From: Anadara kagoshimensis
Lineage: Eukaryota > Mollusca > Bivalvia > Arcoida > Arcidae
Direction of reading: 5' to 3'
Assembly: GCA_021292105.1 (NCBI GenBank)
Contig: CM037864.1
Location: 42,460,514 to 42,524,513, forward strand
DNA: 64,000 nucleotides
Shown: one piece after another, positions 1,638 through 33,344 of the stretch
Layout: every line of letters starts with the position of its first letter
Position numbering within the stretch: the first letter of the stretch is position 1
The notes under the pieces: generated by a model
Databases searched by the model: none
The model's input: the letters and a program-made list of their open reading frames with translations, nothing else
Told to the model about the DNA's origin: nothing
Translations under genes and position numbers: made by a program

Positions 1638-4600
1638 TTAATCAGCTGACATAAACGCAATAATGTCTTGTATAGATTTTTGTTTTCGCATTGGTAGTTT
1701 TCGCGGTTCCCTTGACGACTTGGTCGCACGGGGACAGAACGATTCATTTGATCTTGTTCTAGGTGGAGAGGAAGGCGCGATGAATTCACTAGATCTATAC
1801 CTCTCGGGAGTTGGCACAGGAACACATGCCAAATTATGTAAAACCTTGGGTTTATTCTTTATTCCAGATGACAGTTTTTGTGTTTCGTCATCCAGAGATA
1901 TTTTCTTTCTTCTATAGCCGACATTGGTTTGTCCAGACTTTATGTAGTTAGGAGTTTCATTATCACCAAACGGTCTTATAACATTTACGGGCATCCCGTT
2001 CCTACAATCTGTAGGGGTGTTGTTGGATTTGCACTTTTGGGTTTCTTTGCAAATTTATCTGCTGCAACCGGGAATTTATCATCTGTAACAAATTTTGAAA
2101 AGCATGTGTATTTTTGAATTGACGTTTCAACTGTCTGACATTTTGGTGTCTTTGGTATGGGTTGCTCATTTTTAAGATTTATTCCCAGTGTTTTGTGTTT
2201 GACTGGTTTTAACACACATTGTCCTTGAAGTTTTGAGATGTTGATATGTTTTGAAAGACGAGGTGATTTTTCTTCACGAGTTGATGTTGTTTCATTATTT
2301 TTAGCAAAAGACCTTTCCACTTTACGTTTGACGCCATCCTTTTCGTATTCCAAAACACTTCCGGTTTTCTTAAGATGCTGTTTATTTCTCATCTTTTCAG
2401 GTGCATACGGAGAATGACACAGCATTTTGTTGGTTTTCGAGTATGTGCCATCAGGATAAGTGAAACGGTGTTCTTTGAATTTCACCGGGACTTTGGGCTG
2501 CGTAGCAGACGATCTTGATTTTTCTAAAACTATGCTGTTGTCGCTACTTGATCTTTTAACATCTTTAATGTCAAGCAGAACACGTCTAGGCACCGGCGTT
2601 AACGATGTACGTTCGCGGCCTTGATCCCGTCCTACACATTTAGGACTGATAGTAACTGAAGCCATGTCCAATTTTGCTACCTTAGAACTAACTTTACCCT
2701 CCCTTGCATTTTGGACAGAGCGGTTAATATCTGATGGCGACTTTATGTCATTCCGTTGCCTGGGCGACCTAGATGTAGCTAAATCTGGACATGTTGTATC
2801 ATTAGACTGACTACTAGAAGAAGCTAAATCTTGACATGTTGTATTATCAGACTGACTACCATCTTTGTTATTGGTATCGTCGACCTTATACATTAAATCA
2901 TCGTCAACATCAGCTAGAGAATGTTCTGTATATACAATTTCAACGGACTCCGAGTCCGAATCGTCATCATCCGAGTTCATTGCAGCATCCATAAATAATA
3001 CATAATTTAACTGACGTTGTTCATCATAAGCATAGGGTTGAATATATTCACGTTTTGGGGTATCCGCGCTTGTTTTACTTTCCTCGGTTGTTTCAGGTGA
3101 GGCTTCTTGTGTTTCGTTTTCTTCGCTGCTTTTTATCATATGATACACATCAAAACAGCTTTCACTTGGTTTGAGCTCAAACGGCTCATAAACATGTTTG
3201 AACATAAAACGCAAACCTAAAGTACAATAGTATTTCAAATTCAAATGTGCCAACACAGGTGAAAATGTTATCGGTGGAAAAGTTGGAGGCCATTTATTCC
3301 TCAGCTCATTTTCCCGCCGAAGTTTGGGAATAATATTGGTTAAGAATTTCTGTTTCCATCGAAACCTGTTTAACCCTTTTACAAGTTCTTCTTGTGACCT
3401 CGCTACAATATCTCCAGATTCGTCAACCCGCACTGAGAATGGATACTCGTTAACAAGTTTTTCATATTCTGACTTCTTAGCAGCAAGATTATCCGTGGTA
3501 CTTTGTAGACTCTCTTTGTTTTCTTTAAGACTTTCTTCCTGTTTTGTAAGTGCAGCTTTTTCCTCTTCTTTCTGTTTCTTTAAGTTTTCTCTTTTCTTCA
3601 GATTTTCCTCTATAAGACTCTTCAAATTACTGATAAGTCTGTAAAACATAAGAAATTAGTTTTAACAAGAAAACACATTCATTATATACAAAAATGTATG
3701 TGCATGGTGTAAATAATAAAATATATCAATCTTACGAAAAACATTTTATGTACATGCGGGTTGTTGTCAGAACTTTGTACATTTTTCTTGATAAAAATTC
3801 TATTTTATCCGTTCTTTCATATATTCATTATATACAACAACAATATCAATAAATTTTATTGGAATACTGCAAATTCATATAAAATACCATCGAGTATATG
3901 TAATGTAAACAGTGTTCTCCATTATAACATGTAACAATTATAACATTATAACATGTAATATTAGCAAGTATGTAATATATGTACTAATACATGTATATCT
4001 AAATGTATATACAGTCTGTAGGTATAATAATAATACTGATAAACGGATTACTAATATTTGCATTTCTAGTAGCTTAAACGGCGTTTTGCATTTGCGCCAA
4101 TTTGCATTTCATTTGCGCCGATTTTTTTTTCATTTGCGCCGATTTTTTTTTTCATTTGCGCCGATTTTTTTACAGGTAAATCTCAGATAAAATAGGCAAT
4201 TTTTTATTATTTCATTGCCTGTTCGAAATCAATGTGAATAACATCAGGTGCAAAAGATAGTTGTTTTTCAGGACAGATACTGATAATCATTTGCCACATT
4301 ACTTCATAGCACTGTTGATCTTTAGCTGGCAAGAGGGCATAAATGAGTGGCACGTAGTTGCCATTTTTGCATCCATGTATGGTATATAACTGATAAAAGT
4401 ATTTCGGACAACACTTAAAAGTACCATCTATAAATAATGAAGACATGTCATTACTTAAAATATTATACCTAAAACATTTTACAGGTAATTACAGGTAAAT
4501 CAGCAAATAAAAATAATAATCGGCGCAAATGAAAAAATGAAATCGGCGCAAATGAAAAAATGGAATTTTCAAAATCGGCGCAAATGTCATACGCCCAGCT

Positions 4601-5392
4601 AAAGATTGTTTAAGGAATGAAGAGATCTTATACAATTCAGAATTCTGGGGATTTAATAATCTGGATATTTTCTCTTGGTTTGGTGAGGGATCTGCAAGAA
4701 TTTCCTTGTATACAAAAATGTATGTGCATGGTGTAAATAATAAAAATATATCAATCCTACGAAAAACATTTTAAATCATATAACAGATGTATGGGTTGTT
4801 GTCAGAACTTTGTACATTTTTCTTGATTAAAATTCTTTCATGAATTTCATGTTTTAAACTAAAACATTCAGTATTTTAATAGATTTTGCCTCATGTCCTT
4901 GAATGAAATTACTCATAGGATTTGTTAGTATGTTTTTTTTTTGTTTTTGATTATAAAAATAAAAGGATTCACATTTTTATTTTATTTTCACCAGATAACA
5001 ACATTTCCATTTTTGTAAAATTCGACATAAAGCAGAGCATTTGATATTTTATCAGTTCAAAGATTTAGTGACAGTATCCATAACGAAAATTTGATTTTGA
5101 TTGAAACTCACAAAAAAGATATAAAAATTAATTTTGAGCACATTTTTTATCTTATTTTAAATTATTTTATTTTTTCAAAATATTTGACATGGGGGTTCAA
5201 TACAAACGAAAGTCGCTAAAATCAATGCCTATCCTTAGGTGTTTTTTTTCGAATGCATGTATTTAAATAAGAAGCACCAACAACTTACGTTTTATTACTT
5301 TCAGTCAGATCTTTGGGTTTAACCATTTTATCTGATTTGTCACCAGAACTGTGGCGATTTTTCGTTGATTCTTTCTTCTGTGGTTTGCTCAT
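1638..5392 (-). CDS. Unidentified coiled-coil protein, two coding exons, 1-nt frameshift near 3' end
   Basis: Exon 1 is 5289-5392, starting at ATG 5392 inside an exon whose acceptor (TTACATTTCAG) lies at 5419, and ending at a GTAAGT donor. Exon 2 starts at 3638 after TTTTACAG; the junction is in phase (AC|A). The protein opens with a lysine/serine-rich stretch (MSKPQKKEST), then a charged coiled coil of about 70 residues (EENLKKRENLKKQKEEEK). Next comes a compact block containing RFRWKQKFL, NKWPPTFPPITFSP and LNLKYYCTLGLRFMFKHVYE, which looks like the folded, conserved part. An acidic run (NSDDDDSDSESVEIVYTE) and a long basic Ser/Thr/Pro-rich tail follow. The frame stops at 1985, but a neighbouring frame overlapping it continues to 1638 with the same composition, which suggests one missing G in the run at about 1995. 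I do not recognise the family; a nuclear or chromatin/spindle role is only a guess from composition. Confidence 0.75.
3684..3812 (+). repeat. Direct duplication, copy 1 (intronic)
   Basis: About 130 bp including ATGTATGTGCATGGTGTAAA and GTTGTTGTCAGAACTTTGTA recurs at about 4709-4836 in the same orientation with a few indels. The two copies bracket the MULE relic within the intron of the first gene. Confidence 0.8.
4080..4595. mobile_element. MULE-type DNA transposon relic with iterated CATTTGCGCC termini
   Basis: The left end starts GGCGTTTTGCATTTGCGCC and carries four copies of CATTTGCGCC(A/G)A separated by T-rich spacers (4088-4166). The right end carries the complementary GGCGCAAATG three times and finishes TACGCC at 4595. 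Between them lies a fragment of a MULE transposase on the minus strand. Flanks AGCTTAAAC and AGCTAAAG may be a diverged 9-bp target duplication, but this is weak. The element is a short internally deleted copy in an intron. Confidence 0.7.
4207..4446 (-). pseudogene. MULE transposase domain fragment
   Basis: A 79-residue minus-strand frame reads FIDGTFKCCPKYFYQLYTIH and later VIHIDFEQAMK. This matches the core of the MULE transposase domain: the DGTF motif carries the first catalytic Asp, and the D-F-E-x-A motif about 65 residues later carries the second. The third catalytic residue, the zinc-binding region and the C-terminal half are missing, because the frame stops just before the terminal repeats. 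It is a non-functional remnant that identifies the superfamily of the surrounding element. Confidence 0.7.
4709..4836 (+). repeat. Direct duplication, copy 2 (intronic)
   Basis: Second copy of the sequence at 3684-3812, about 1.03 kb downstream, differing by small indels (for example an extra segment after ACGAAAAACATTTTAAA). Such flanks could arise if the transposon inserted and the region was then partly duplicated. Confidence 0.8.
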
Positions 5393-5419
5393 TTTCTTTA
5401 TAAATCTAGCTATTTTATC

Positions 5420-6699
5420 TGAAATGTAATAATTACATAAAATAATGGGCTTCAGTTTTATTATTTTTGCACGCGTGGCTGGTGCAGCCAGCTAAACAGG
5501 AGATGCTTACCCTTCCGGAGCACCCGGTCTTACTCCCGTAATGGAAGTTCAAGAGTTTAACCTAATTTGCCAGTTTCAAAGTTTTTACTTTGCTTCTGGA
5601 TTTTGATTTTGGCATGGATCAATGTGGTTGTTTTTGATTTACACAGACTTCTTTATAATATTTTATTTCTTATTAGCTAATGGACATCAATTTCTAAATT
5701 CAAGTTTTTTCGTCAATACATCTATTTGAAAAATAAAACTAATCTTGTATGTCCACTTTCAAGGAACTCGGCCACGATTTCCATTTCAAAAAAGCACGCG
5801 GGAATAAAATGCCCGATTTCCAACATTCCTGAATTCATCAGATTATTTAACGCATGGTTTTGTTTCAAACCTATTGTATTTCAACACTTTATTCGGACAT
5901 CAAGCCAATTCGGGGATCAGACACATACCCTTAAGATCGAGAAAGCCAAGTTGATTTAGGCTGACGAAAATTTCAACAACACTTCGACCGGAGAGCATGA
6001 TTAAAACCAGAAAGATTTGGGATAAATTTAAGTATTCACTGTATTCCAATCGATCGCATTTTAAAGGGGCATAGGTCGTATGGGGAATAATATCCGAGAT
6101 TTCCCGCACTTCAGTCGGTTATTTTCTGCCTTCAATCGGGAATATATTGTTTCCTCGGATAAAAGTGGCACATTTCAGCCGAAAATCAAAGTAATTAGTC
6201 GGGAAATTCAGATGAACTTGCATGCAGCGGACTACAATCGGGAAATTTAACTGTTTTCCACACTTTTTATGGTAACCCGCATTTGCTTAGGGAATAAAAA
6301 CACTAGGATTTATATCGGGAGATCGAACTCGTGATTACCATGTACCAGTCACAGTGTCTTAATTTCCCGCATTTCGGTTGGGTAATCAATTCAATGATTT
6401 CTCGCGCTGTTCCGGAGTTTAACTTGCACCATGCTTAAAGCTTGCCGAGTTGGAAGATTCTGCAAACACACAGAATTTATAACAATTTTACAATGTATTA
6501 GAATACTCACAGCCAGACAAACATTAAAACTTCTTTCCGCTCTCCTCCTCTGTTGTAAACTGTGCATTGCCGCGAGCGTTGTCATGTGTACGGCAAATGT
6601 AGAACATATGACGTAATTCAATTGTTCAACATGCAACGAATGGGATATGACGCATTCTAATTGTTAAACGTCACCATAGTTTTCCCGCATTTTCACATT
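5420..6699. other. Non-coding region with dispersed repeats
   Basis: 5465-5560 contains GAGATGCTTACCCTTCCGGA, which I believe is part of a dispersed repeat common in bivalve genomes (from memory, not checked). From about 5720 to 6440 the words TCGGGAAAT and TTTCCCGCA recur in both orientations (for example 6099, 6200, 6238, 6363), another iterated-word pattern. No exon with supporting splice signals was seen. A non-coding first exon of the minus-strand gene ending at 5392 may lie here, because that exon begins at an acceptor. Confidence 0.5.
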
Positions 6700-7600
6700 G
6701 ATGTGCGAGATTCACGGGTCTGTTATTATTTTTATGTGCTATTCCAGCTTGCTGTCTTTATATTTATGTGCATCACGGTGATTTACGGATTTTGTTATTG
6801 AAGCTTTATATGCGTGATTTACGGAAGTTGTTTCAATTTTAATGTGCACCTCTATTTCAGTTTGACGTGCGTTGATATGGGTTTTCTATTCACGGGTGTT
6901 TCTATTTTGATGCGTGGTTCATGGGTCTCTTTCTATTTTGATGCGTGGTTCATGGGTCTCTTTCTATTTTGATGGGTGATATTTTGATGCGTGATTCATG
7001 AGTCTCTTTCTATTTTGATGTGTGGTTCATGGGTCTCTTTCTATTTTGATGTGTGGTTCATGGGTCTCTTTTTATTTTGATGTGTGGTTCATGTGTCTTT
7101 CTATTTTAATGTGTGTGATTTACGGGTCTGTTTCAATTTTGATGCCAGTGATTTACGGGTTTATTTCTATTTTGATATGCGTGTTTTTCGGGTCTGTTTC
7201 TATATTGATTTACGAGGTTCATGTGCGTGATGTACGGGTTTACTTCTTTTTAGATGTGCGTGATTCACGGGTTTGTTTCAATTTTGAAGTGCGTGATTTA
7301 CGGGTTTACTTCTATTTTGAAGTGCGTGATTTACCGGTTAACTTCTATTTTGATATACGTGATTCTCGGGCCTGTTTCTATTTTAATGCATGGTTCAAAG
7401 GTCTGTTTCTATTTTAATGCATGGTTCAAAGGTCTGTTTCCATTTTAATGCATGGTTCAAAGGTCTGTTTCTATTTTAATGTATGGCTCAAAGGTCCGTT
7501 TCTTGTTTGATGCATGATTCACATGTCTGTTTCTATTAAGATGCACACGATTTACGGGTTTACTTCTTTTTTATGTGCGTGATTCACTGATTTCTTTAAT
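6700..7600. repeat. Degenerate ~35 bp minisatellite
   Basis: Units of about 33-37 bp of the form GTGATTCACGGGTCTGTTTC followed by TATTTTGATGTGC are tandemly repeated more than 20 times. Two sub-families are clear: a central GTTCATGGGTCTCTTTC group (6905-7090) and a right-hand GCATGGTTCAAAGGTCTG group (7385-7480). The open frame across 7022-7417 is a by-product of unit length and composition. Confidence 0.85.
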
Positions 7601-8174
7601 CATTGGGTTTTGAAGCTGGCTGAATTGGGATTATTTTAGTTATAAAATAAGTAGATTTGTAAAGAGCCCTATAGTAGCCTACTGGGCATCACTTTGATTG
7701 CATCAATATGTCCAGCATACATCTTAAGACTGGGTTATATATAATCAGTAAGTTTTAATATGTACTGATCATATTTTTGTGTTTATTAATTGGCGAGTTT
7801 TTGTTGTGGTTTTCTTTTTGTCTATTGTAAAGTACATTGTATATATTATTCAGTTACCAATGTCACCATATGTATACATTCATTTGTCCACTTTAAACAT
7901 ACAATTCACTGGGGAATTAGCTCCATGTTCAGGTTTCACCAGGCTTTGTTGTTAGTTTTGTAACTGGGGTTACCTTAGAAGCAAAAACACCCATACCAAG
8001 GCTTCATCAGCAATTGTTAGTTATAAGTGACCGGGGAAGGCTTCATCTGCTTCAGCAGCCATAGTTGTGTGTTAAGTGACTAGGAGTTTCTTGAGAAACC
8101 AGTATATTTCACTTATATCAAGGGATCACAAGCCATTGTGTGTTTAGTGACTTGGTTTCTTTATCAAGGCATTA

Positions 8175-8348
8175 GAGATGTTTGGAAAATCGTATTATTT
8201 TTTAACCACTATAAATCTTGCTCAAAATCTATAATATCCGCTCCTGTTAAGGCTGAATGGGGGGATTTAACCAGTCTGTTACTGTAGTAAAACAGTAAAA
8301 CAATTGTGTATTTTAAAATCTTAGAGTTTCTATACTCAATTACACCAG

Positions 8349-8387
<39 letters not shown>

Positions 8388-9226
8388 GCGCACAAACAAA
8401 TGGAAGATTTGTAATGTAAATGTTGTTTCTGCAGCATATATGTGTTTCAAAACGTTAATGGGCTTACATATCACATATATTCTCTCTCTCTCTCTTTCTC
8501 TCCCTCTCTCCAGTTTGGTCTATCATTTGCTGTGATGTCAAAACTAGCATCTAGTCATTTAAGGGCTGATTAAAATATTTATCGGCGAAGAGAGAAATCT
8601 CGTGATTTTTATAAACAAACCCCTTTCTGAATGTAAATGCTTGTAATATAGTGTTAATTTTTGATGTATTTATGAATTTTAATTGACAGCTTTAAGTTCT
8701 CCTTTACAAAACAGTTTTTTTTCTGCAAAAATGGAACGAAAATTAAAATAAAGTTCACCGTTCAATGAGCAGTGTTCAGTCTGTTTTTTTAAAAACAAAT
8801 TTGAAATTTTAGGAAAATTTGACAAAATATGGCTGAGGTATTTAATGATTTATTTGCCTCCAAAAATGTGTTACTGAGGTGTGATACTGTATATTAGAAT
8901 ACATGTACTAAAATGATCATTTGTCCGTTCAACCGTAAACATAATTTTATTTTTTTTATGCTACATATTTATGATTTTCTATGATTAAATAACACATCTA
9001 GAGATATATTATAACCAGTTTGAATATGAAAATTAAACTTTTCTTCTTGTTAAAACTCTTATTTTATTCACCTTAAAATGTAACACACTGTTCACACACT
9101 TCGATAAATGCATATTAATTTCTCTCATCACCGCTATTTGACTCCCTGTCAAGGGAGAAGCTAGTAGTACATGTGGTCATTAAATTATCCTAAGTTAAAG
9201 AATCGTACAATTTTCCAAACATCTCT
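8175..9226. mobile_element. Non-autonomous inverted-repeat DNA transposon, ~1.05 kb
   Basis: The ends are inverted copies: GAGATGTTTGGAAAATCGTA on the left and, read from the right end, GAGATGTTTGGAAAATTGTA, with weaker similarity continuing for about 15 bp. ATTA flanks both sides (8171-8174 and 9227-9230). The uninterrupted target (GGCATTACCAGCC) is present in neighbouring repeat copies, which confirms an insertion. No transposase frame was seen. It contains (GA)n at 8352-8386 and (CT)n at 8481-8511 in opposite sense, so its interior could also fold. The superfamily is uncertain. Confidence 0.75.
8352..8386 (+). repeat. (AG)n microsatellite
   Basis: About 17 AG units inside the 8175-9226 element, followed by CGCGCACA. 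Confidence 0.95.
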
Positions 9227-10741
9227 ATTACCAGCCACTGTTTTATGTTTAGTGACTCACCCTTTCTTTAGAAACCAGTATATTTCACTTATATCAAGGG
9301 ATCACAAGCCATTGTGTGTTAAGTGACTTGGTTTCTTTATCAAGGCATTACTAGCCACTGTTTTGTTTAGAGAATATTTTACCGATATCAAGACTTCGCT
9401 GATCATAGTTGTGTGTTTAGTGACTGGGAGTTTCTTGAAAAGCCAGTATATCAAGGCATTACCAGTCATTGTTTTACATTTAGTGACTCATCCTTTCTTT
9501 AGAAGCCAGGATATTCCACTTATATTAAGGCTTCACCAACTGCAAGTTTTAAAGTAAACAGGGATTGAATATTCAAAGTCATGAATGTTTCACTTATATC
9601 TAGATGTCTTCAGCTATAGATGAATTGGTAAAACATTATACTTATACAGAATGTTTATAGCAATACACAGTAAGGTGGCTTTCGTGTCATCATGGCTGGA
9701 GTAAGATCAGACTTGAAGAAACATTAATTTTATTTCTAAATTAGTGATTGCAAAAAGAATAATGGTCAACCATTTTAAGTATCTAGTCCAAACCAAATTA
9801 AATCCACACAAGAGACAAAGTCGGGGTTTAGGGAGATTCTACTCTAGAAAGTACATAATGGTACAGTTTTTAACTTAAAAAAACCCATAAAATTTATTGT
9901 TCATTTTATAAAATCAAAACAATCTTTTTTGTTTATGAAACAAAAATAATAATAAACATTTAACCACATTGTATGTGTGCATCTACATGCATATGTAAAA
10001 CAAATGAACAATAGCAAACAGCACTCCCGAGTACAGCAGTAAACATCTCAACACTATTTTCAATATAAAAAATCATTTTTACACACACACACACGAATAA
10101 ACATGTTATCAAATAGGTCAAATAACATTCAATCAGATCTACAGCGACCTAATATTACCAAAATTTTGCACCAAATCAGGATTTTGCCAAAATGTTAACC
10201 ATTTCACACATATCAGTCAAATGAGCTTTTTTTTTTTTTTTTTTTTTTTTTTAGCTTTAAACATCATTCCTAAAATAAGATTTTCCTTGATTTTTCTCAT
10301 AATTAAAATTTTCAAAAAACTTTTCAAAATCCAGATAATAAGATTTCATGAACGTATGATAAGTTCTAAATTATACCCAGCATTTCTGTTTATCTTAAAT
10401 ACTAACAAAGTTAATCTGATTTTTGGTTAAGGGAAATCTTACTCTTAGATGAGGAATGCTTTTGAAACTGGTGCCAAAAATGTGGTGGGTAAATTCATAT
10501 ACAGTCATTGTGGAACCTGTCTAAATCAAAACAATTTCCAGGCAAATATTTTGTTCTTTTAGCCAGGTATTCAGAAAAAAAAACACAGGTAAACTTAACA
10601 TCAATATTAACAGTATGTTATGATAAAATAGTTCAGGGTGTAAACATGTTTTTGGTTATCACTGGAGGACAGCTTAGACAGGTTGAACTTTAATTCTTAA
10701 ATGCCACAATGATCTATGGTTGTGGAAAGAATAATTGCCTA

Positions 10742-10907
10742 TGTTTCCATTCCTGGTAGCCAAAATCGCCATTGGCTACTAATTTCTGAGGAATTCTTTT
10801 AAAAAGTAACCTATTTTAGCAAATTTGTGGAAAAATACTTTAAAAAGGACTATATTTTCACAAATTTTGGAAATTTGGCTACTACTTATTTTAAATTTGT
10901 GGAAACC
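10742..10907 (+). mobile_element. TA-flanked 166-bp MITE, copy 1
   Basis: Begins TGTTTCCATTCCTGGTAGCC, ends TTTGTGGAAACC, and is flanked by TA on both sides. The terminal inverted repeat is short (GTTTCCA / TGGAAAC). Three further copies occur at about 42885, 32582 and 58090 (the last two inverted). TA flanks and small size fit a Tc1/mariner-type MITE. Confidence 0.8.
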
Positions 10908-11696
10908 TAGTAATTGCTGTTATATTCTAACCATCAATCTGTCTTAAAGTACAAATAGACTGTATGTTATGTCCTGTGAACTCTACAGTCTCTATATGAA
11001 GGTCTTTGTTTCCAATAATGGGATTTGGTCTTTCACAGTCTTACAAAAATAAATTTTTGTAAACAGCTTTGGTAACTATATTTGCCAATTTATAGTATTC
11101 ACTGAATCATTGCTGGTACTCCACTGACTAGATCTTTAACAACAATAAAATATGACATATCTGTACACGATAAGTATTTCTTTATGTCTTTGGATAAGCT
11201 ATGTGTTTAACAAACAGTCAGACCAACAGTGTTACATTGTATACTAGTATGTGTATCCAGGGAGTAATGTAAAATAATATATTCTCCATAATTCAATTAT
11301 CCATGATGATAATCCATAAACAAACAGCTGAATTACACATCAGTAAACTTTATCTTGATCTCATCTACAACAACATAAAAAGATGGCATTATTGTCAAGT
11401 AATACAACATACATTGATGGTTAAGAGAGAGCAAGAGCATTTATCAATTAATTTGAGAAAGGGAGAGATTTTACAAACACTTGATCAAACAATAGCCATC
11501 AGATGGACAGGTAACCTCAACATCTAGCCTCTTAATAAAACAGTTTAAACTACCAGTAACAAACATCTAAAAAAAAGAACTCTCAGAAAGGTATGATAAA
11601 TTAAATAACACTTTATATAGGACACTTAACAATACAGAAACATGTCGAAATAAACCAAGTTCCATAACATATAGGAAATTATAAATAATTTTCTAT

Positions 11697-11716
11697 TGAG
11701 AGAGAGAGAGAGAGAG
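11697..11716 (+). repeat. (AG)n microsatellite
   Basis: Short AG run just downstream of the TDRKH stop codon on the opposite strand, probably within its 3' UTR. Confidence 0.9.
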
Positions 11717-11775
11717 ATAGATATAGAGCACATACCTATTAAAATGACATACCTATCTAATGACACAGAGAGACA

Positions 11776-14700
11776 TCAAGTTGTATCTGTTTCATCCCAT
11801 ATTGCAAATCCTCTTCTTACAAGTTCTTGGTTTATGTTCACATCCTATATCATAAACAATAATTAATTCTACAGAAAACTATCTACATAATTTAAAATGA
11901 TATTACAATCCAGGCTTTATAAACCAATGCTTAAGTTGGAGTCTAGAAGAGTAGAGTAATGTAGATTTACACCCAAGAAAAGATATTTTTTTACTTATAT
12001 CGAGGTGGTTAATTCTGGGATGTCTCATTAGAAAATACTATATGATCTATAACTTGATTGTATTATTGGATCATGTGATTAGGGTGGAGGAAACATCATG
12101 TTTCCCTCTGAAAACATCATATGCCATCCCTTCTGATGCCTTGAACAAAATCCTGCATGAGTGCTTCAATAAAAAAAGTTTGATGTGCTTAAATGTTTTT
12201 GTATACAAGATAACAAATTGGACTAGACAGACTTCAAGCAAATTTAAATGAATAAAAATTGTTGATGTTTCTTATGATTCAGTCTGCATAATAAATGTGA
12301 AGTACATGTATAACCCACTCTCACATGAAATATATAACAAGTCAGAATATGTGACTATCAATATAAAACTCTGACATACCTTTGTTCCGTTAGTGTCTAT
12401 CAGCTCTAGTACATATATAGCACCAGTATCAGTTAGTTTTTGTCCTATCTTCTTGGCCATTATAACCTTCCATTTAGCACAATATGTCAAATCTTCTACT
12501 ATCTCAATACAATCATCACTCCAATTACTACCTAAATAACATAATAAACTTATACATGTATCCAATTATTTGTAACTTAATGTTATTAATCCATGAGAAA
12601 TAACTCTGATATGGTTAAGTTCAGAAAACAGTTATATAATCTGCTATGTTGATTATAAACAATTCTAACTGTAATATTCTGTAAGATAATTAATACTGGA
12701 AGTTTAACATTTACTGCAAAATCATGAATAAATAATCACATCAAAAAAGTAACATCATGTTCTTGTCTTTACTCTCGTCTTTTGCAGATGGATTACCGTA
12801 AATTAAATGAATGGTTTTTACTCCTCAGTCAAGACTCTTAATTACAGGTAGTCAATTATAGTCAAACCTGTCTATAAAGACCACCAAAAGGAACCAGTTA
12901 AAGTGACCTTTATGGGCAAGTGGCCTTTATATACAGGTTCAAATAATATGAATAAAGCACAATTGGGATACAATTCTATTGGCTTTTATAAGCAGGTGGC
13001 TCTTATATAGAGGTGGTCTTTAAGGCAGGTACGGCTGTATGAAGTTTTGATGGAGAAGATAGAAATGTAAAAAGTATATGCATGACGCATGTCAGATAAC
13101 ACCATAGATGGTGAACTATCAAATGCATAAGTGAGCTAATCAAGTCAAATCAAAATATAACAAAATCAATATTATAAAGCAGAAAACTAAGCAATTTTTT
13201 ATATAAAACACATCTAAATATATATATCTAAATGTATATTAAACAAACCTGATGGCTGGATATTTGCAAAACAACACTCTATAGCTTGAAATGGTAAAGA
13301 CAAATACTGTGAACTGAAACAAAGAAATGAACATGTATACTACAGTAAATAAAATTCTAATTTTTTACATAAACATAAATTTTTCAATGATAATTATCAA
13401 TTAGGAACCAAGACACAAACTACTAATTAGCTAACCTATATGGAGGCATTATTTAATAAAGGTTGCTCCATACATTCAACACTGGATACTGGTGCCCACA
13501 GACACCATGGATATGACAATAGCTCTTTTTCACTTCATTCAGGGTGTTGTTATTAGTAAAATCAAAATAAAAAAACTGTATGTAATTTACCACCATGTCA
13601 CTTACCAAAGTTTTCGTAATTTATCTTTTCCTATATACACACTGTCACCATAATCAACATAAAATATATCTATTTTATCTCCTTCCACTCCCATAACTTT
13701 AGCTCTGTACCATGATGGATCATTCTCAAATGGTGCTGCTACCATGTCACCGACAGACAGCTCAGAGACTAAATAATCCTAAAACAACAACAAACAATTT
13801 CATTTTTTATCAATCTTTACACTGGCCTCTTTTAATGCCCCTCTCAACCCTTTCCCTCAAGGTATTTTTGATGTGCACTACATAGTCACTTAAAACTGAT
13901 TGCTAATACCTCAATATATGAAAAAAAACATCTTTACAAAAAGGCATTGGAATTTTTTTGTGGTTAATATGATATTTGAAAACAAGGACATAGACTATAA
14001 TGCTAAGTGATTACACAAATGTTAATTTTTACTAAAAAATAATTATAATGTAACTCAAGTATCCATCATTCAGGAATACTTAAATTCAAAATTGAGCTTT
14101 TATATATTAGTCAAACCAGAATTATAAATACCAGTATCAATAAAGCGTAGTAGTGTTGACCACTTAATCGATTTAATCGATATCTAATCGTTTGAGCGTC
14201 CAATTAGCGATAATCAATTCTAAAATTTAATAATCTATCAATTTCAATTATTTACTGAAGTTTGTTTATGGAACTTCTCTTATAAAATAAGTATGAAACT
14301 GTAGCTGAAATAAGTGTACTTGGAAAAGAAAACTAACACAAATGTAAGGAAGAGTAAATCATCAGAAAAATGGAGGATATTTTAAGTCTTAACTGAGATA
14401 CAAATATCTTGCAGATATTATCAAGACTAAAAGTTTAAAAGTTTAATTTACTGTGTAATTACTGCTTCAATTTATTAACCGATTATAATCGGAAAATCGA
14501 TCGAAATCATCTTCTGATTATAATCAATTATGAAAATGCAACAGATTCCCATCACTAATAAAGCAGGAGATGACAGTTTTAGCTAGGAAGCAAAAATATG
14601 AGAAATGGAAAGTAGACATTCCCAGAACTGAAGTTTCAAAATAATCACAATATACATGTACATGATATATGTGATGGAACACTAAGTGTAACACTTCATA

Positions 14701-17700
14701 AACATATGACACTCACTGTGGATATTTCTGATGAATATAAAGAGGTCATACTACTGACCAACTCGTCCAGTTGTACAGCCATTGATGTAAGGACCTGTAT
14801 CCAGAAGTTAGATGGACTGGCCACTGCTGATACATAAACCTCTACGAACTCCTTACCATCCGGCCACCTAAAACCACCCACAGCCACACTCTCTGTGGCA
14901 GCCGATTCTGAAATTAAATATTGTATATGTTAAACAGAAGATATTTGCATCTGAAAAAATATTTATTTGATGACAGCCAATATAGCTAAGATCATTAAAT
15001 GATAAACAAATAAAAGAAAACAAGAAAAGACGAATACTTATTTAAAGATAAAATTCCCGACTTTAAATGTCAGATTATCACCAGGAACACTTATTGTGAC
15101 ATCATGACAATATGTTTAAATATCTAGTAAAATCCTTGTATGAATATGGTAAAACTTTTCCTAAAACTTTTAAGCTATTGACTACAGATACTCCAATGTT
15201 GGAGACACCAATTTGCTATACATTTGTTTACCAAAATAAACACAGATTTCTTAAGACTAGTCAAAACAAATGCATCATTAGTGGGGCATAAAATGAGAAA
15301 GATGATTAACTAAAAAACCAACTTTAATATCTATGGAATGAACGTTAATCATTCCCATCTCTAACTTTTTTTTGAAATGTTTTAAATTTTCAATAACCAC
15401 CTGGTTAAGGTCAAGTGGTCTTCAACAACCAGGCTTATGATAAATGTATATACATGTATTACCCATTTGCCCCTCTGTTACATGTGTGGCCGCTCTGTTA
15501 ACTTGATTTTCTTTACTAGATTTACTTCTTTTATCTCTGTTAGCTGCCATTACTGCTGCCTTCGCTCTAAACACTTCCTCTTCCTGTAGTTTCTCGTCAA
15601 TGAAAGTCTGTAAATAGAGTGTAGTAAAAACCTCTTAAGGAGGCTCGAGTGAAAAAAAGTTTAATTACCATCATTGTGAATTTTATATATTTTGTAGAGC
15701 AAAATGTGTAGATTTGAAAAATAAAAAAATTAGTATAGGTCACCGGACTCCCTTTTTCTGTATCTGGCTTTAAAAGTAGCGGAAATTACACAGTTTTATG
15801 CATTTTTGAAGAATTTTTAGTGGTCCTCATAAGTTTTAGAGTGAACAATATGTTGCAGTGTTTAAACTCTTAAATGGTGATAAATTAATTTATTTTCCAA
15901 GACAGTTGAAAGACATAAATCTACTCTTTTGATTTAAGGAGATTTGAACAGTAACAAACTAAAACAAACACACAATCTAATAATAATTCTGTGGGCATTA
16001 GAGATTTATCAGAGTAATATTTAGCACTATTTTCAGATAACAGTAGGAACAAAAAATGGAATATTTTTAATAAGCAAATTACCAAAAGTTTCAAAATCTC
16101 CATGAATATAGCTTGACATATATTTCATAAAATAAGATATTAAAAAATATGGGTCACCGGATTCGTTTACTGTACAGTCGCTATGGTAACAACCCTACCC
16201 CTATTTTTATTTAGTATTTTGGGGGATTTATTTAGTTTAATTTTAAAATAAGTGATACTTTTGGTGTAATAGGTAATAAAAACGATTATTTACATTATAA
16301 ATTAACATTTTAGCCCAAGATGAATGAAAATCTACGATAAATTATCAATAATTTAGCAAAACCGGCGACATATATTTGTAATATAGTATGTGTTGCTAAC
16401 AGTTACTCAACTGCTCAAATGGTTTATCACATTTGTGTTGCAAGTTTGAAAAGATATCAATAAACATATGTTCATTACTTTTTAACTTGTACATTTAAAA
16501 ATATTATTGTGCATTTAGATCTTCTAAATTCAATGCTAATGCTATCAAAAGTAAAATCTTGATGAAACCGTGAATGATCCGGCGTTAACTTCCGGGATTC
16601 CGTTACGTATCCAATTTGTTTTTTATAACCTCTAACTTTATTCCGTGTCACATTTTTGCGTTGAAGACATGGGGAAACTATGCACAGAACTTTACAACAG
16701 AAACAAAGATGTTAAAAGATCGAATACAGTAGGTATATTATTTTCAATATGCTCCGTTCGGAGCCATGAATTTCAGGTCTACTGGCAGTTGGGTGTAAAA
16801 ATGAGTCCGGGCGAATTATAGTCATTTCGTACCATGACCATTTCGTACCATGACCATTTTGTACCATAATCTTTTACCATTTCGTACCATACAGTGCATA
16901 CACTCAAGCCATTTACCATTTACTACCATTTCGTACCATATTCTTCAATAAAAACTCGATAAGACGAACATCTTCAAATAAAAAACACTTGGACTTAGAG
17001 AATCTATGTTAAAAAACGATATTTTTTGCTGAACTAGGGCCATCAGATCAAAAACAAAGATCGGGTCACAAAATTTCCAAATGATAAAGTGGAGAATCTT
17101 ATCAATGTTCTTTTTCTTCCTGTTATTCATATCTGGCTTATTAATACATGTATTAATAAGTAACACTTTAAAAAAATCTTATCAATAGTCTACAATAAAG
17201 AACCTTTTTTTAAAATATAATCAACAAATAATGTTATTATATTTTATAAATATGGTACGAAATGTTAGTATTTTCTGGCATGTGCAGATTTTGAATGCAT
17301 TATTTTAATAAAATTTGCAAGTCATTTCGTACCATAGAAATGGAAAATTTGGGTACGAAATGGTTATGGTACGAAATGGTCATTTGGCATGGTACGAAAT
17401 GGACAGAGTTGGGTACGAAATGGTAAATTTGGGTACGAAATGACTAGCTTCGGTCCCGGCCATGATGATTTATTCCATTGTTAAATCTTATCAGATGAAA
17501 TTAAAATTACTTAAAATGATTATGCTGTGCATAGATTACTTTTCACCCAATATTCCATGGATGAGGGGGGTTAGTTGGGTTAAAATACTGTAAAAGGAAA
17601 TGGAAAAAATGCAACAGCCAAATTAGGACTTGAACCTGGTACCTTCCAAATACTAGAGGTAGTGTCTACCCACTGAGCTACCCAGCAAATTATCAAGTCC

Positions 17701-20700
17701 TGTCTGCCACATTCCTACCTTCCTTTTTGGGATTAACTCCATTGAATCGAAACCAGGCACCAGATTCCAACCTGTTTGTCTGCCACTTCCCAGAGTCGGA
17801 TGAGCCCCCAAATGTAAGAGGAAAGCAGAAAGGGGAAAATGTAGCAGCCAAACTGAGACTGGAACCTAGGATCTTCCCAATACTAGCAGAACGCTCCATC
17901 CATTGAGCTACCTGGCCACATATAGAGTCTGGTTTGCCACAATACTAAATAAACTGTTAATAGGTATAGAAAGATAATGGTCAGCAGTTAACCATGTTAG
18001 TCATTGTATATTATTTTAGGAAATTTACATGTGCATGTATTATGTAGCAGGACTGAGCAAGTCTTGATGTTGTTGTGTTGTATATAGTAGATATAATCAA
18101 GTGATTTACTGCCAGGCTTTGCGGTTTGGACCTATTAGCCTTGTGAAAAAGTGCCCGCTTTTCACCAGGGAGGGTGGGGTTCGATACTCAGTCAAGGCAC
18201 TTGGTGAGGAAGTGAATTTTCAGGTGTGTCCTCCCTCCTGTTGTATGTAACTAAGAAATCAGTAAGGTCCAAGAACAAGATTTTGACTTTTTGAGATGCA
18301 TGGATATTAAAGTGCTATCATACAAAGTGTAAATACTCAATATGTAATACTTAATATGTAAACAGAGCTCTGCTAAATGTGTGAATTTATATAATATTGT
18401 ATATGTTTTAAACAATCTTATGTGTTCATCAATGCATTCAAGACAGCATAAAGTACATTTTATTTCTCCCAGTACTAGTTTACTTTGGTGACAATTATGA
18501 TATGTTTTATATGTACCAGTATATTCAGTGTTCAGTTCTTGTGGATTGACCCCAAAATAATATTTTTGTCTCATAATAATACTGTCTGTTGACCAACACT
18601 GACCCATATTTTAGCCTAAGTTAAGTTTTGAATAAATTCAATTTCAACTCTTTCTTGTTTATATATTTTGAAATAGTTAAAAACATGGGCCCTTTTTCCA
18701 AGGCCTGGACCAGGATGACCTCACCCACTAGTAACGACTACAATACTGATATTTCTAATGTTAATTACCAGTACACATAATTGTATACCCGGTACTTACA
18801 ATTCAATTCAGCGGTACAATATATGTTTTAATTTGGGTGTGTGTAATCTTTTTACTTATATTTTGTCACAAATTGACACAATTCTTATAAAGTATTTTCT
18901 TTTATTTTTTAGGTATAACAGGATCTCATCTGCCATTTCATGGATATAAACAAAGCAGCAGACCAACTGTAGTTTCTGTAATAACTTGGCATCATATGAA
19001 TGGACTTGTCACATATTATATATATATGATACTTTGATATGCAAATATATTACAATACAGGGATAGTTGATCGTGTTTATAGGAGTTTCATCAATGTACA
19101 AACAATTTATGTGTGTTTATTTGAGGAGGCATGACAAGTGTATATTTTAGAATTACAGCAATGCATGTGGATAAGAGATACACATACGTTTCAAAGCATT
19201 ATACTTTACACATGTGTGGATAGTGAGAGATCATTTGTTAAAATGTAAAAACTGCAGTTGTGATTAAATATCAGATTTGCAATAAATATGTAAATTTGCT
19301 GTCATTTATTCAAAGTATTTAAGAGAGTTTTACCAGTTATTGCTTAGATTGGTCCAATTGGCCATCTGGGTTAGGCTATGTCACTTATATTGAGGTGTTG
19401 CCAGCTAAATAAGTTGTTGATTTTAAACCCATGCAATATACATGTTGTAGTGACTGAGGGTTCTATATAATGTCACTGTGGGTCATTGTTCATCTTCAGA
19501 TTGCTTGGTTCAATTCACTACCTTCATTCAGTTCTTGATCATGCCTAGTCAGCATTTTAAGACTCCACCCACCCTGACCCCACCCCCATTGCTTATTGAG
19601 TATATAATATTAACATTGCTTAGAGAAAACTGAGCTGTCATGTGAAAATTAGATTATAATAGTTAATTTTAATTTACCAATACATGTATTACACAGAAAC
19701 TTGGCTTCGCAGTCAAGATTATTTCTTTTTCATACAGAAATCAGCATCTGATTACTTGGCTTTTCTTACCCTTAATTCCCTCATCAAGAAATCACATTTT
19801 TTGTAGTCAGCATCTTTGTAGACTTTTGTAGTTTATTAAAAATCAGTTTTTAAAACATTCACTAATATGAAATAAATAATTAAGACAAATTCAAAATTTT
19901 GATTTTACTCTAGGCTTGTACTTTAATCACTTCCCTTATATCTGGGGCTAGTTTATCCTGTTCTGTGGTAGGAGGAACCAGTCATTCCATGCATTGGTCA
20001 CGAAAAGTAGAACACAGATGTTCCTTATTTTCTGGTTATATTTGGCAAGCATGTCAACAGTAAGAACATTAAGAGAGTCAGAGAGGGATTTGATCTGGAG
20101 ACTTCCTATACTCTATAAACAATTGCTCTACTTGTAGTGAGGTAACCACTAGCCACATTTCTCCTATTTTTTTTAATTAATGTTAAAGTCTAGATTTATT
20201 ATAAATTTTAAAACAAAATATGAATATCCATAATATAGAAAAGGAGTTTAGATCCAATACATTGTTTTTTAAATGAATCTGGTCCATTTATATTGAATGA
20301 ACCAATTCATCCTCATATCCACTCACAAGTCAACCACTTCCATTGATGTTGCAATCAAAATAAAATTTAAAAACACACACAATGCAGGTGGAACTGGGCA
20401 CATCTCATAGTCAGCTGATAGTAACTATTTCAGGGGTAACCCGAAATACCGGATCGGCCCTAATTTACCGGATCGACCATGCGATTTACCGGATCGGCGC
20501 CGGATCGACCCTTATATGTGGTTATATGGCCACATAGATTGAATTATAATGTTGATATCTTTAATAGAAGATGTAATCAATCTTATTTTGATTTTATTTA
20601 TGGTGTATTGACACAAAATCATTAAAAAAATCTTATTATAGTCAAGGGGAGATAAATCTTATGATGATTATTAATTGATTGGCACACTTTTAAGTGCGTA

Positions 20701-23700
20701 TCAATAAATAAAATAACCTAAAATAGTATTAATGTTATACTATTTTGATTTATATTATATATTGATAATTATAATCAATACGTCAATTTTTCTGACATGT
20801 ACACTCTTTTCCAATAAGTATATTATTGACTGGGAATAAGTATAATCTTGACGAGGAAGTACCAATCATTCGTTAAATGCAAAGGAATAACACTTCAGGA
20901 CTATACAAAAATAAAAGTAATAATTGAAATACAAATTGACACATAAATTCATTTATTTAGACAACATTAATTAAAGTAGCAAGTATAAATATAAAATTGT
21001 GGAAACAAACGTAACCGTGATTATATACATCGCCGGGAAACAAATAAAATACATAATTTAAAGATGAAATATAATCAGACAAAATATAATATTGATATAA
21101 GTTTAAGAAAAAAACATTGACTGGGACATATATATCTACATTTAATAAAACGTTGAATATATAGAAAACAACGTAAAACAATATCAAATTACCACATCAC
21201 AATAAAATCAATACACACAAAACGTAATTCAACAAACATAAAACTAGGGCGTATTTAATAGTTTTTCTAGAGTTTTATAAACGCGCGCGTCTATGCAAAA
21301 TGGAAACAGCGTGAAAACACTTGCGCACTAAAAATGTACCGATCTGGACAAATAAATAAACCTGCGATGCCTCCATACAAACTTTCGTTCATATGCGTGA
21401 TATTGGACGTATTTTCATCACATGTTGAGTCAATAATAATAATCTCAATCAATCTGGTCTCAGAACGCAGGGAACAAAGTGATTGGGTACGAACTCATCA
21501 CTATATCTTTTTAAAGACCATTTGTGTCCACATACATGTATAACCGTGGGTATTGGTGGAGCTGACGTATTTACCTACAACTTTTCTGGGGTGGTGTTCG
21601 GAAAAAAAAAAACTCACGGGAAAGTTGGGGATATATGATCTGATAGGATGTTTAAGAGCAGCAGTCAAGACATAATTTAAATCCATCATTATTGCAAATT
21701 TGTCAGTTTTCCTGGTTTCTTTTACTAGGTCGTTAAAAGGGATCTTAATTTGATTATATTGTACATGTGTCAGACCTTTATAATGTTAAATCAGTTAAAA
21801 GGATAATGGAGTGGTATAATGACAAAATTTCTTTGGAAACATGGTCCAACGACCAGGGGAATTACTTGGCAAATCGGAATTTCTATGTTATATGTTGTCA
21901 AGAAATTTGATTCAAAAGAAAGGGTTTCTTATTTCAGATTCCCATTGTTTCTTTCTCTGTTATTTCAGTCTGAAAAATAAATCATTAAAACAGTGAAAGA
22001 ATCATGACTCAATATGAATTAGTTCCAATTAATAAAAATTAAATGAAAAACATTATTTATCTGTGTAATGTAATTAAATATAAATTACTCTATCTCTCTC
22101 ATTTAATTTCAAATTAAAAATGAACAAAGTTTCACGCATTTTTAAAAGAAAGAATTCAAAAAAACATTATAATAATTTTAAATAACCAAATTTTTTAAAA
22201 AGTTACTTTTTGTGTCTTAATATTTTTATGACGTCGGGCCATTATTTTATCCGAGCAACATTATGTCAATAATAACTTTTTACGGACTTCATGGACAAAA
22301 GGCCGCCGCGTGCCGTCAATGAACTAATTAACGCCTCCTATTATTACCACTGATAGCGAAGCCCTGCTGAGTCAATTAAAGACATTAAATGGACTTACCT
22401 GTTGCGTCTCGTAACGGATCGACTTAAAGATTTGATTGGTCCAAAGTGTTAAAGGAAGGCGGTCCTTTTGCTTTGGCATGCCATTTATTATTACAACATG
22501 GCGATTTGCATAGTGTTGAACCTTAACTAAAAATTATAATGATATTTTCGAGCATCCATGATTAAAACAATTAAAAATGATATATATTTTTCATCATTGA
22601 TATCATATAAATATAATGCTGCCCTCATTTTGACTCTATGTGACAATATAAGGGTCGATCCGGCGCCGATCCGGTAAATCGTACGGTCGATCCGGTAAAT
22701 CAGGGCCGATCCGGTATTTCGGGTTACCGCTATTTCAGTACAAAACGGACACAAACAACACTGGTTGTGACCCCAAAATGTTAGACGCCACAGACACAAG
22801 TAAATATTCAATAAAACGGATGTCTTACTAAGTTTGTTTGTCTGCATACCTCGTTCAGTGTTAGCTGACTGACTAGCGTAAGTTTAACTCTCGGCCTGTA
22901 CCGAGGAAGATGACGGGAGTTGTGACCTTCGACGGTCGGTGCGTTTTGATGTCACTGATGTCGGCATTACAAGGAAAATCGCGGTAGATAAATCCGATGT
23001 AGCATAAACGTATGATTAAATAGATTTTAAGTACCATTCCTTGTGATTTTCGGCATTTTGGTTTTGTATTTAATCGTATTTTTCTTTCTCATGTTTAGTT
23101 TGGTAGCTGCTGTTTTGATGTATTAGTGCCGTAAAACGGCATATGTCGTACACGTATGTGACGTTATCACCGTTATTTTAAATAAAGTTGTAATTACATT
23201 TTTACGTGTGCTTTTGAACATATATCAGAATATTAACACGTATGTGTGTTTTATTTACTGATTAAAATAGTAGATAACAAAAAACGTTTTACGTCAACAT
23301 GTTTGGTGACGGGGACCAGTCTAGCGACTCGCTCCTAAAATTTATTTCACTCGAGCCTCCTTAAAAACCCCTCATTTACTAAGATACTTCCCTCACCTTT
23401 TAAAATTCCTAGTCGTTTTTTTCTCTACAAACCTCACTCACAAACACCACTGAAATTTTAAATTTATAAGTTCAATCTTTCTTTTTTTTCTGTAAGACAG
23501 GTATTCAGGTTAATAGGAATGCACTTACCTTGGCTAAATCTATCTGATCTCTAGTTCCCGTAATAGTCACAGATCTTGGCGTATCCCGCGATTCATCTTG
23601 TGTTCTTTCTATAATTATCTTAGCTTTTGATGACCTTGACATATGTTTAACACTTTCACCATTTCTTCCTGAAGTGAAGAAAAACATCCGTTACCTTTCA

Positions 23701-33013: not shown

Positions 33014-33344
33014 TGTGAATTTGACGTTATCACGTTACTTGCTACTTAACGTAAAGCGCCGCTGAATTATTCAGCGCACCTTGCGGTTGCCTAGACGGGA
33101 ATCATTTAAGTAAGCACTTTGTTCATTGTGCAATGACGCCCAAACTCGAACGGAACACCAGTCTAGATTGAAAAAAGAAAGGACAAATTCGATTGGCTTA
33201 CCTCTTTATGCTTTGTCCAATCAGACAACTCGATACATTATTTCTACTTTCATTTTGTATGGAAATTACAGTTCTCCACGTGCTGTAATAGAGTCGATTT
33301 TAAACTACCCATGTAAAGGCAATTATATAAAAACATTTACAGCA
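33014..33344. promoter_or_regulatory. Probable head-to-head promoter of TDRKH (-) and EXOSC8 (+)
   Basis: A minus-strand donor at 33011-33012 marks the end of a likely TDRKH non-coding first exon, and the EXOSC8 start is at 33345. The interval is CpG-richer than its surroundings (AGCGCCGCTG, GCGCACCTTGCGG). It contains a perfect odd palindrome, CGCTGAATTATTCAGCG, at 33060-33076. No TATA box or proven initiation site can be named. Confidence 0.5.

Follow-up and report, generated by a model that had tools for sequence, protein, structure and literature searches.

How can a transposon family change the sequence that its transposase reads and yet stay mobile, when both ends of the element and the protein must change together? 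This question is raised by a 64,000-nucleotide stretch of the Anadara kagoshimensis genome (contig CM037864.1; hereafter the window), in which a first-pass annotation had described several transposons with ends built from an iterated short word, a different word per element. The observation was partly confirmed and its interpretation partly supported. In the likeliest reading, two of the elements (A and C) are deletion derivatives of two different MULEs and a third (B) is similar; transposase binds the word arrays, and the words turn over behind a constant terminal box. A route to such a change could run through arrays of short words, in which one copy at a time is altered, under avidity.

Iterated Words at the Ends of Three Elements

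The three word arrays are real. Word A (CATTTGCGCC), word B (CATTTCGTACCAT) and word C (ACCGGATCG) are present in the window in 7, 8 and 6 exact copies, respectively, all of which lie within the element of the same letter, while the mean count for each exact word in simulated windows (n = 50) was at most 0.02. A word-blind scan (8-mers, at least 3 per side) returned the three elements and one satellite at 29–30 kb, and nothing in shuffled sequences (n = 20). Both the scan and the exact counts agree with the annotated arrangement of terminal word copies facing inward, a single word in the right array of B excepted. Inverted-end scores of A, B and C were 86–155. All three have the inverted ends of short direct repeats that characterize Foldback-like structures, and these clear inverted ends depart from the short degenerate or missing terminal inverted repeats (TIRs) of VANDAL elements.

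Three further blocks (915–1078, 5720–6440, and 62095–62280) had been assigned to the same style, which did not hold: the word-blind scan, at 3 words per side, found no facing clusters in them, and their inverted-end scores were 24, 19, and 25, respectively, vs. 86–155. Their best 7-mer count of 4 was matched by 26/381, 251/372, and 31/360 real draws of the same length. Block 915–1078, inside which a 72% inverted pair was listed, does stand out against shuffles (P 0.000–0.010 for 6- to 8-mers), and 62095–62280 carries four same-sense copies of TTAGCGC, which are all four of the window, without an inverted cluster. On the scan, the inverted-end scores and the real draws, these blocks were rejected as members of the same kind as A, B, and C.

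MULE Ancestry of Elements A and C

Element A (518 bp; 4079–4596; termini CGGCGTTTTG and GGGCGTATGA, reading inward) had been placed at 4080–4595; the element stands, and its ends were corrected to those common to most of 20 fetched copies. Its left array consists of four copies of word A at 21–22 bp spacing (4089–4162, forward strand) and its right array of three, facing inward (4522–4586, reverse strand). The spacers between these words are T-runs. The MULE transposase fragment that had been attributed to one of the elements is found here, as a PF10551 domain at 4210–4488 on the reverse strand (E = 4e-8, above cut-off), and is 90% identical over 69 aa to a 3.4-kb copy, L138. The DNA of A aligns with L138 over 243 bp at 98% identity, with flanking blocks at 93–94%. 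Four pieces of L138 were searched and gave FLYWCH at 1e-11 (above cut-off) and MULE (PF10551) at 4.5e-5 (just below it). Pieces of long-copy ORFs occur in 16/21 short A copies, and exact target duplications of 8 or 9 bp in 12/21 A copies; the window copy has no intact duplication. The best explanation is that A is a non-autonomous, internally deleted copy of a MULE DNA transposon, one with a FLYWCH domain, and the transposase domain, the 8–9 bp duplications and the inverted ends place family A in the MULE (Mutator) superfamily. With the A fragment, a PDB sequence search returned nothing convincing and an IMG/VR search no match. The FLYWCH domain of L138 and the 8–9 bp duplications also fit the values tabulated for the Phantom group in PMC6446971; the comparison covers these two features, and A is not filed as Phantom.

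Element C (2296 bp; 20434–22729; termini GGGTAACCCGAAATACCGG and CGGTAACCCGAAATACCGG, reading inward) is a deletion derivative of a 7.5-kb element. Its left array (20448–20507, forward strand) contains three copies of word C and one CCGGATCG, as does its inward-facing right array (22656–22715, reverse strand). One element had been reported to have a 9-bp target duplication, and C is indeed flanked by CTATTTCAG at 20425–20433 and 22730–22738 (forward strand), a perfect 9 of 9 that only 1/297 random flank pairs reached. Duplications of 9–10 bp were present in 17/18 C copies, and of 9 bp in 3/3 C2 copies. Among long copies, L090 contains MULE (PF10551, 1e-10) and L096, whose transposase pieces are 57–74% identical to those of L090, contains OTU (2e-7); the extra genes of the long copies are OTU, NADAR, GDSL, and PHD-like (PHD below cut-off), and FLYWCH was absent from the 3 L090 ORFs and 5 L096 ORFs searched. 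The window copy retains of this coding content only a broken remnant of the OTU-domain ORF of L096 (21399–21913, reverse strand; tblastn E = 9e-24), and its 8 interior ORFs gave no Pfam match above cut-off. Pieces of long-copy ORFs were found in 14/18 short C copies. C is thus best explained as a non-autonomous, internally deleted copy of an OTU-bearing MULE DNA transposon, and family C belongs to the MULE (Mutator) superfamily by the transposase of its long copies, its 9–10 bp duplications and its inverted ends.

Genome-wide, facing clusters of word A occur at 121 + 117 places and of word C at 194 + 200, vs. 1 and 3 for the respective reversed control patterns. Words A and C hit 37 and 20 IMG/VR contigs, all but one in each set (36 and 19) through just one match, and these hits are taken for chance. 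The genome-wide copies gathered in this way, with ends and 8–10 bp duplications defined for A and C, uphold, for these two, the earlier proposal that MULE-like families each possess their own clustered word. The further proposal of one MULE-like clade comprising A, B, and C was not borne out. The transposase pieces of A and C gave no convincing match to each other (best blastp E = 0.97, in a tiny set), their accessory domains differ (FLYWCH vs. PHD-like/OTU), their termini are not alike and their words show no convincing likeness; B lacks a coding copy.

Element B and Families D, E, and F

Element B (640 bp; 16813–17452; termini GAATTATAGTC and CGAAGCTAGTC, reading inward) has no recognised gene. 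As a word-array element it stands as described, but its ends, formerly 16807–17459, were reset from copy L163 (86% identity over 523 bp). The left array comprises five words, each identical to CATTTCGTACC or one mismatch away from it (16823–16939, forward strand), and the right array (17252–17442) six words on the reverse strand and one on the forward strand (17323). The flanking 8-mers, GTCCGGGC (16805–16812) and GTCCCGGC (17453–17460) on the forward strand, are 7/8 alike at exactly the L163-defined termini, a match that alone means little, as 141/297 random flank pairs reach 7 or 8 of 8. Duplications were judged in the window copy, L163, and L066, leaving out L159–L162: L163 provides the single exact case for B (8 bp), and none was found in L066. 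Facing clusters of word B occur at 779 + 790 places, those of F type included, vs. 15 with the pattern reversed. A copy of B with a coding region was not found; two B-interior ORFs had no Pfam family at cut-off, tblastn of the A and C proteins against the B loci examined gave no match, and neither did an IMG/VR search with word B. B is a short non-coding element, and it looks as if its mobility is of the same type as that of A and C.

Two more families bear on B. Family D is inserted in C copy L106 with a 9-bp duplication; the corresponding place in the window's own C is the empty target site, ATAGCGAAG (22353–22361, forward strand). In F, two word types, one of which is word B, are interleaved in similar order at both ends of the one copy; the genome-wide search lists three more places of F type. 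B, D, and F have similar terminal boxes and different words (one copy each of D and F). The putative MULE ancestry of the three rests on duplications and termini, because coding copies of D and F were not found either. A further element, E (L121), has iterated words and a duplication of ~6 bp at most, read by eye, which shows that such arrays can also occur where the duplication is not 9 bp long; E was left out of the family list on account of its duplication.

It had been suggested that words perhaps turn over rapidly. The shared box with different words and the mixed array of F favor turnover directly, though thinly, with one copy each of D and F. Tentatively, a MULE-like lineage (B, D, F, and possibly A) may keep its terminal box and swap its iterated word, with F as an intermediate in which turnover is perhaps caught midway, and with binding domain and array co-evolving until new families are mutually incompatible. 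It is also conceivable, again short of probable, that B, D, and F are alike only by convergence of short CG-bearing words and termini, without any turnover lineage. The termini compared are 10–11 bp long and were trimmed by eye, one copy each of D and F was examined, and the interiors of B, D, and F share no DNA similarity. The box comparison gave best P values of 0.0001–0.0007 among 45 pairs; for B's other box and A's X box, the best match to any other box reached P 0.019 and 0.04, respectively, and B's second box has no match among those of F or D (best P 0.054). Against convergence, the likeness extends to two independent pairs of ends (B_X and F_X; D_Y and F_Y), the left array of F holds the exact B 13-mer twice, with one-mismatch forms beside the second word at both ends, and the cores CGTACC and CGTCCC are close.

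Proposed Role of the Word Arrays

In the mechanism proposed for transposase binding, each end has a terminal box of ~10 bp, to be recognised and cut by the catalytic core, and behind it 2–9 inward-facing copies of a family-specific word, which the transposase's own DNA-binding domain would bind weakly. In A this would be the FLYWCH zinc finger; for C the candidates are a PHD-like finger and a domain that escaped detection. The array may lend specificity and assemble several transposase molecules per end before cutting, with 8–10 bp duplications as the result. Repetition within the array would let a word drift and spread from copy to copy, through gene conversion or slippage, in step with the binding domain; the terminal box would stay, and related families would therefore come to have different words.

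The words might instead be the targets of a second protein, encoded by the element or by the host, that maintains element activity, like the anti-silencing protein VANC of VANDAL elements. This is improbable, even though all words here contain CpG, the long C copies carry OTU, NADAR, GDSL, and PHD-like as extra genes, and the 8–9 bp motifs bound by VANC likewise form tandem repeats and vary among related families (excerpts of PMC5735166). The motifs bound by VANC are situated in non-coding parts of elements with short degenerate TIRs or none, whereas the words here stand at both extreme ends, directly behind the terminal box and facing inward, and they persist in copies of 0.3–0.8 kb with at most gene scraps. 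No VANC-like gene was seen among the ORFs searched, a part of all ORFs; the L138 pieces gave FLYWCH and MULE at the levels stated above. Persistence in copies with just gene scraps also led to the rejection of words as promoter elements only.

Alternatively, slippage and gene conversion could have inflated the TIRs in a Foldback-like growth, with the words having no binding role. The number of words per end differs among copies, A has its T-run spacers, and L096 has ~103-bp tandem repeats near one end, all of which would suit such growth. It nevertheless seems unlikely: outward-facing words were absent from the counted elements (0/105 in 20 A elements; 0/108 in 18 C elements), the same plan recurs in five families with 8–10 bp duplications (A, B, C, D, and F), and the two ends of a C element carry like words but different spacers. 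The last point is weakened by the choice of copies, as word conservation among them is partly built in because they were picked by exact word pairs. Word spacing is mostly 21–23 and 32–34 bp in A, 11, 19, and 21 bp in C, and mostly 14–23 bp in B, D, and F; helical phasing was rejected as a general rule, since A and C fit multiples of ~10.5 bp and B, D, and F do not.

Comparison with Known Systems

Transposase binding of the words remains the favored reading, and the end architecture itself is precedented in Aedes Muta and nematode Tm1. Muta1–14 are MULEs of Aedes aegypti with 8–9 bp duplications (PMC5225508), grouped with Phantom in excerpts of PMC6446971, whose table for the Phantom group gives FLYWCH, SWIM or no zinc finger and 8–10 bp duplications. 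In the portions of PMC5225508 consulted, the TIRs of Muta1 combine a terminal motif of ~10 bp with 9 copies of a 12-bp subterminal tandem repeat, Muta5 has an 8-bp motif and a 15-bp repeat, repeats of 9–15 bp are found in 10/12 long-TIR families, and many deletion derivatives have shortened arrays. The elements described here resemble Muta in duplication length, terminal box and subterminal repeat arrays, and in having deletion derivatives. They differ in host, in the OTU, PHD-like, NADAR, and GDSL genes of C, and in the first base, which is not the same at the two ends in C and most A copies; word turnover is not described for Muta in those portions. Tm1 of root-knot nematodes, a Mutator/Foldback element with a Phantom-like transposase, has composite TIRs in which a ~14-bp motif occurs 1–9 times; its duplications are 9 bp long, its terminal motifs asymmetric (CGGTTAA/CCTACCC), and its members both MITE-like and coding (excerpts of PMC3169594). 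The composite TIRs with word copies, the 9-bp duplications, the two sorts of members and the asymmetric terminal motifs recur here; Tm1 differs in its word and terminal sequences and in the single motif lineage described in those excerpts.

Galileo likewise has repeats inside long TIRs, and these hold several sites for the transposase DNA-binding domain, as seen by footprinting and EMSA (PMC3688188). Unlike the elements described here, Galileo is not a MULE and has a P-superfamily transposase with a THAP domain and long repeat units; for Phantom and Foldback repeats, transposase binding is called untested in the excerpts of that source. VANDAL elements of Arabidopsis are MULEs in which a family-specific short motif forms tandem repeats and evolves among related families; they differ as plant elements without clear TIRs, whose motif is bound by VANC (excerpts of PMC5735166). 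In other respects, families A, B, and C simply add members to a type of element already known. What is new here, on thin evidence, is the combination of a common terminal box with different words in B, D, and F, and the mixture of two words in F; families seemingly sharing termini but not words, together with a two-word element in one genome, make the proposed route testable.

Word arrays in the window

The transposons A (4079-4596), B (16813-17452) and C (20434-22729) have ends made of a short iterated word private to each, as the first-pass annotation had proposed. The exact words of A, B and C occur in 7, 8 and 6 copies in the 64-kb window, each inside its own element only, while simulated windows contain a mean of ≤0.02 exact copies per word. 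A word-blind scan, which required an 8-mer to recur 3 or more times in 220 bp and its reverse complement 3 or more times over the following 6 kb, returned A, B and C together with one satellite at 29-30 kb, and 20 block-wise shuffles gave 0 groups. The 7-mer version picks up, in addition, a handful of A/T-rich words and a satellite at 52-54 kb.

The first of these satellites (29046-30189) is an array of ~53-bp units with a facing pair, CATCTCCAG / CTGGAGATG, that the scan returned. The second (51935-54283; 2.3 kb) has 42-bp units in a 124-bp higher order, TGTCAAA and TTTGACA recurrent in both senses, and long open stretches on both strands. The window also holds a minisatellite with 31-33 bp units and higher-order periods (6899-7537), and long ORFs (26349-28067 and 33114-34169) that by eye resemble a B-box/NHL (TRIM-type) protein and an exosome subunit.

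Three further blocks (915-1078, 5720-6440 and 62095-62280) had been assigned to the same style and are absent from the word-blind scan at 3 per side. When the scan is relaxed to 2 per side, one word of block 915-1078 emerges, at a setting where shuffles average 3.7 groups. The best 7-mers of the blocks have 4 copies each, and 4-copy 7-mers are found in 26/381, 251/372 and 31/360 same-length draws from the real window, respectively; block 915-1078 stands out against shuffles (P 0.000-0.010). The window's 4 copies of TTAGCGC share one sense, are confined to a 100-bp stretch (62112-62209) and have no inverted partner cluster; they may be what survives of one end of a further word-array element.

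Genomic copies and target duplications

In the 1.115-Gb assembly, where the window occupies C8:42460514-42524513, the places with a word pair number 194 (forward) and 200 (reverse) for C, against 2 and 1 in the reversed control; the figures are 121 and 117 for A (control, 0 and 1) and 779 and 790 for B (control, 15 and 0). These are pairs, several per element, rather than counts of elements, and the B count takes in places of the F type described below. Twenty C-type and 20 A-type stretches were fetched, chosen as facing pairs among the first places listed. The B copies are loci returned with the B word search plus L066, met by chance; full-element evaluation covered the window copy, L163 and L066, with L159-L162 outside it.

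The C set comprises 18 elements (the window copy and 17 fetched), the other 3 of the 20 being a variant, C2. Of the C elements, 13/18 satisfy a strict model in which a single terminal base is combined with an exact 9-bp duplication; in four more the 9-10 bp repeats are exact and their edge is shifted, and for the remaining one (L105) no duplication was found. All 3 C2 elements have a duplication. Among the 21 A copies, which represent 19 independent insertions because L140/L141 and L152/L153 have common flanks, 12 have an exact 8- or 9-bp duplication and one a single-mismatch duplication. No intact duplication was found in 8, the window copy included, of which L140 and L141 retain 7 bp. Two more of these 8 are L143, which has another element, E, in its target duplication, and L138, where one terminal box is missing. 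The exact 8-bp duplication of L163 sets the B termini, at which the window copy is flanked by GTCCGGGC/GTCCCGGC, a 7/8 match that weighs only through its exact position (7 or 8 of 8 match in 141/297 random flank pairs); in L066 no duplication was seen.

The first base is C at one end and G at the other in 18/18 C, 3/3 C2 and 18/21 A elements. In family C (L088-L107 and the window), the 14 elements with a coding match all have the same polarity, with C at the end lying 5' of the coding remnants and G at the 3' end. The C family TIRs otherwise match, the asymmetry being this one base.

At each of its ends, element E (L121:2120-2808) has CGCATAAA words in the two orientations, and it lies inside an A element's target duplication. 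It may belong to another superfamily, because its own duplication, judged by eye, is only ~6 bp (CCGCTG) or less.

Transposases and cargo genes

The MULE fragment of window A is above cut-off (4e-8). L138, a 3.4-kb A copy that matches window A at its ends and with 98% identity over 243 bp, has coding sequence for a FLYWCH finger (1e-11) and, below cut-off, for a MULE piece (4.5e-5). Pieces of its ORF are present at E 1e-4 or better in 16/21 A copies, the match in one of these, L139, being weak (E=9e-5). L138 is the longest A copy seen, and a 50-bp minisatellite (L138:1022-2156) breaks its transposase region.

Coding pieces are present in 14/18 C elements. L096, a 7.5-kb C copy, has a PHD-like finger (below cut-off), an OTU domain (2e-7), transposase pieces, and an ORF with NADAR (6e-22) and GDSL (3e-12) domains. 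In L090, a 7.5-kb C2 copy, a MULE domain scores 1e-10 and a GDSL-like fragment falls short of cut-off; the transposase pieces of L090 are 57-74% identical to those of L096. Window C, collinear with L096, retains the OTU remnant (E=9e-24). The NADAR/GDSL-hydrolase ORF lies at L096:4832-5833 and the GDSL-like fragment at L090:3564-3836. Such NADAR/GDSL, OTU and PHD-like cargo in the long C-type elements is unusual for a MULE.

The elements had been taken for one MULE-like clade. By domain, A and C are both members of the MULE superfamily, but within the reach of the tools used they appear to represent separate lineages, because the best blastp match between an A and a C protein (set of 12 pieces) spans 45 aa at E=0.97.

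Terminal boxes and possible word turnover

Two further elements, D and F, were each read in one copy. D (L106:1977-4362) sits within a C copy as an insertion that duplicated ATAGCGAAG, and the C element of the window shows that site unoccupied. The word of D is CAAAACGTACCC, and the 11-mer AAAACGTACCC occurs 9 and 8 times at ≤1 mismatch. F, 890 bp long (L158:1459-2348), has inserted into D-like sequence with the duplication GCCAAAACG. Its left array runs CGTCCC, CGTCCC, CGTACC, CGTACC, CGTCCC, CGTACC, CGTCCC, CGTAAC, and its right array has a similar, not identical, order. The exact B 13-mer occurs twice in the left array, with one-mismatch forms only in the right, a sharing partly due to selection, as F came from a search for B's word. 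Among the B places listed, at least four have the word pair seen in F (C1:3143856, C1:16414559, C1:42762013 and C2:7424804), the element itself having been read at the first only.

Outside the word arrays lie terminal boxes of ~10 bp, X and Y, which read inward GAATTATAGTC / CGAAGCTAGTC in B, GAATTACAGAC / GGGTGCAAGAC in F, GGGTTATAGAC / GGTGCAGGAC in D and CGGCGTTTTGC / GGCCGTATGAC in A. In a comparison of 45 pairs, with boxes trimmed by eye and 5000 random 11-mers from the window as background for each box, F resembles B and D (B_X-F_X, P 0.0004; D_Y-F_Y, 0.0001; D_X-F_Y, 0.0007; D_X-F_X, 0.0016), as B does D (B_X-D_X, 0.0022). The A_Y box resembles D_X (P 0.0015), F_Y (0.007) and D_Y (0.008); the C boxes match each other only. 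On this reading B, D and F, the latter two known from one opened copy each, are probably one lineage with changing words, which A may join, and C stands apart. Against this lineage count the second B box, whose best partners are its own first box (P 0.019) and F_Y (0.054), and the first A box, with no partner better than P 0.04. The interiors of A, B, C, D and F gave no match between families. The proposed word turnover is the freshest part of the analysis and the thinnest; the unmatched B box and the further F-type places pull its odds in opposite ways and leave them unchanged.

Comparison with known systems

The terminal box is probably read by the catalytic core of the transposase and the words by an N-terminal domain, with the array providing avidity. 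Experimental support comes closest in Galileo, in which footprinting and EMSA located several THAP sites in long repeat-bearing TIRs; the same paper describes repeat binding as untested for Foldback and Phantom (PMC3688188). Alternatively, the words could be the target of an anti-silencing factor, as in VANC/VANDAL (PMC5735166), or the arrays could reflect passive array growth. In the literature listings and passages searched, neither a two-word array nor a replaced word behind conserved terminal boxes turned up outside VANDAL.

MULEs are listed across molluscs in a paper whose text does not contain the word "subterminal" (PMC10294476). We class A and C as new MULE families whose ends are Foldback-like; B counts as MULE-like on its structure and duplication. 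The word-array-end architecture is already known: Aedes Muta has 9-15 bp subterminal tandem repeats and 8-9 bp duplications in 10/12 long-TIR families (PMC5225508), and Tm1 a ~14-bp motif in 1-9 copies (PMC3169594). By our comparison, the published termini of Tm1 also have the same C/G end difference as families A and C (PMC3169594).
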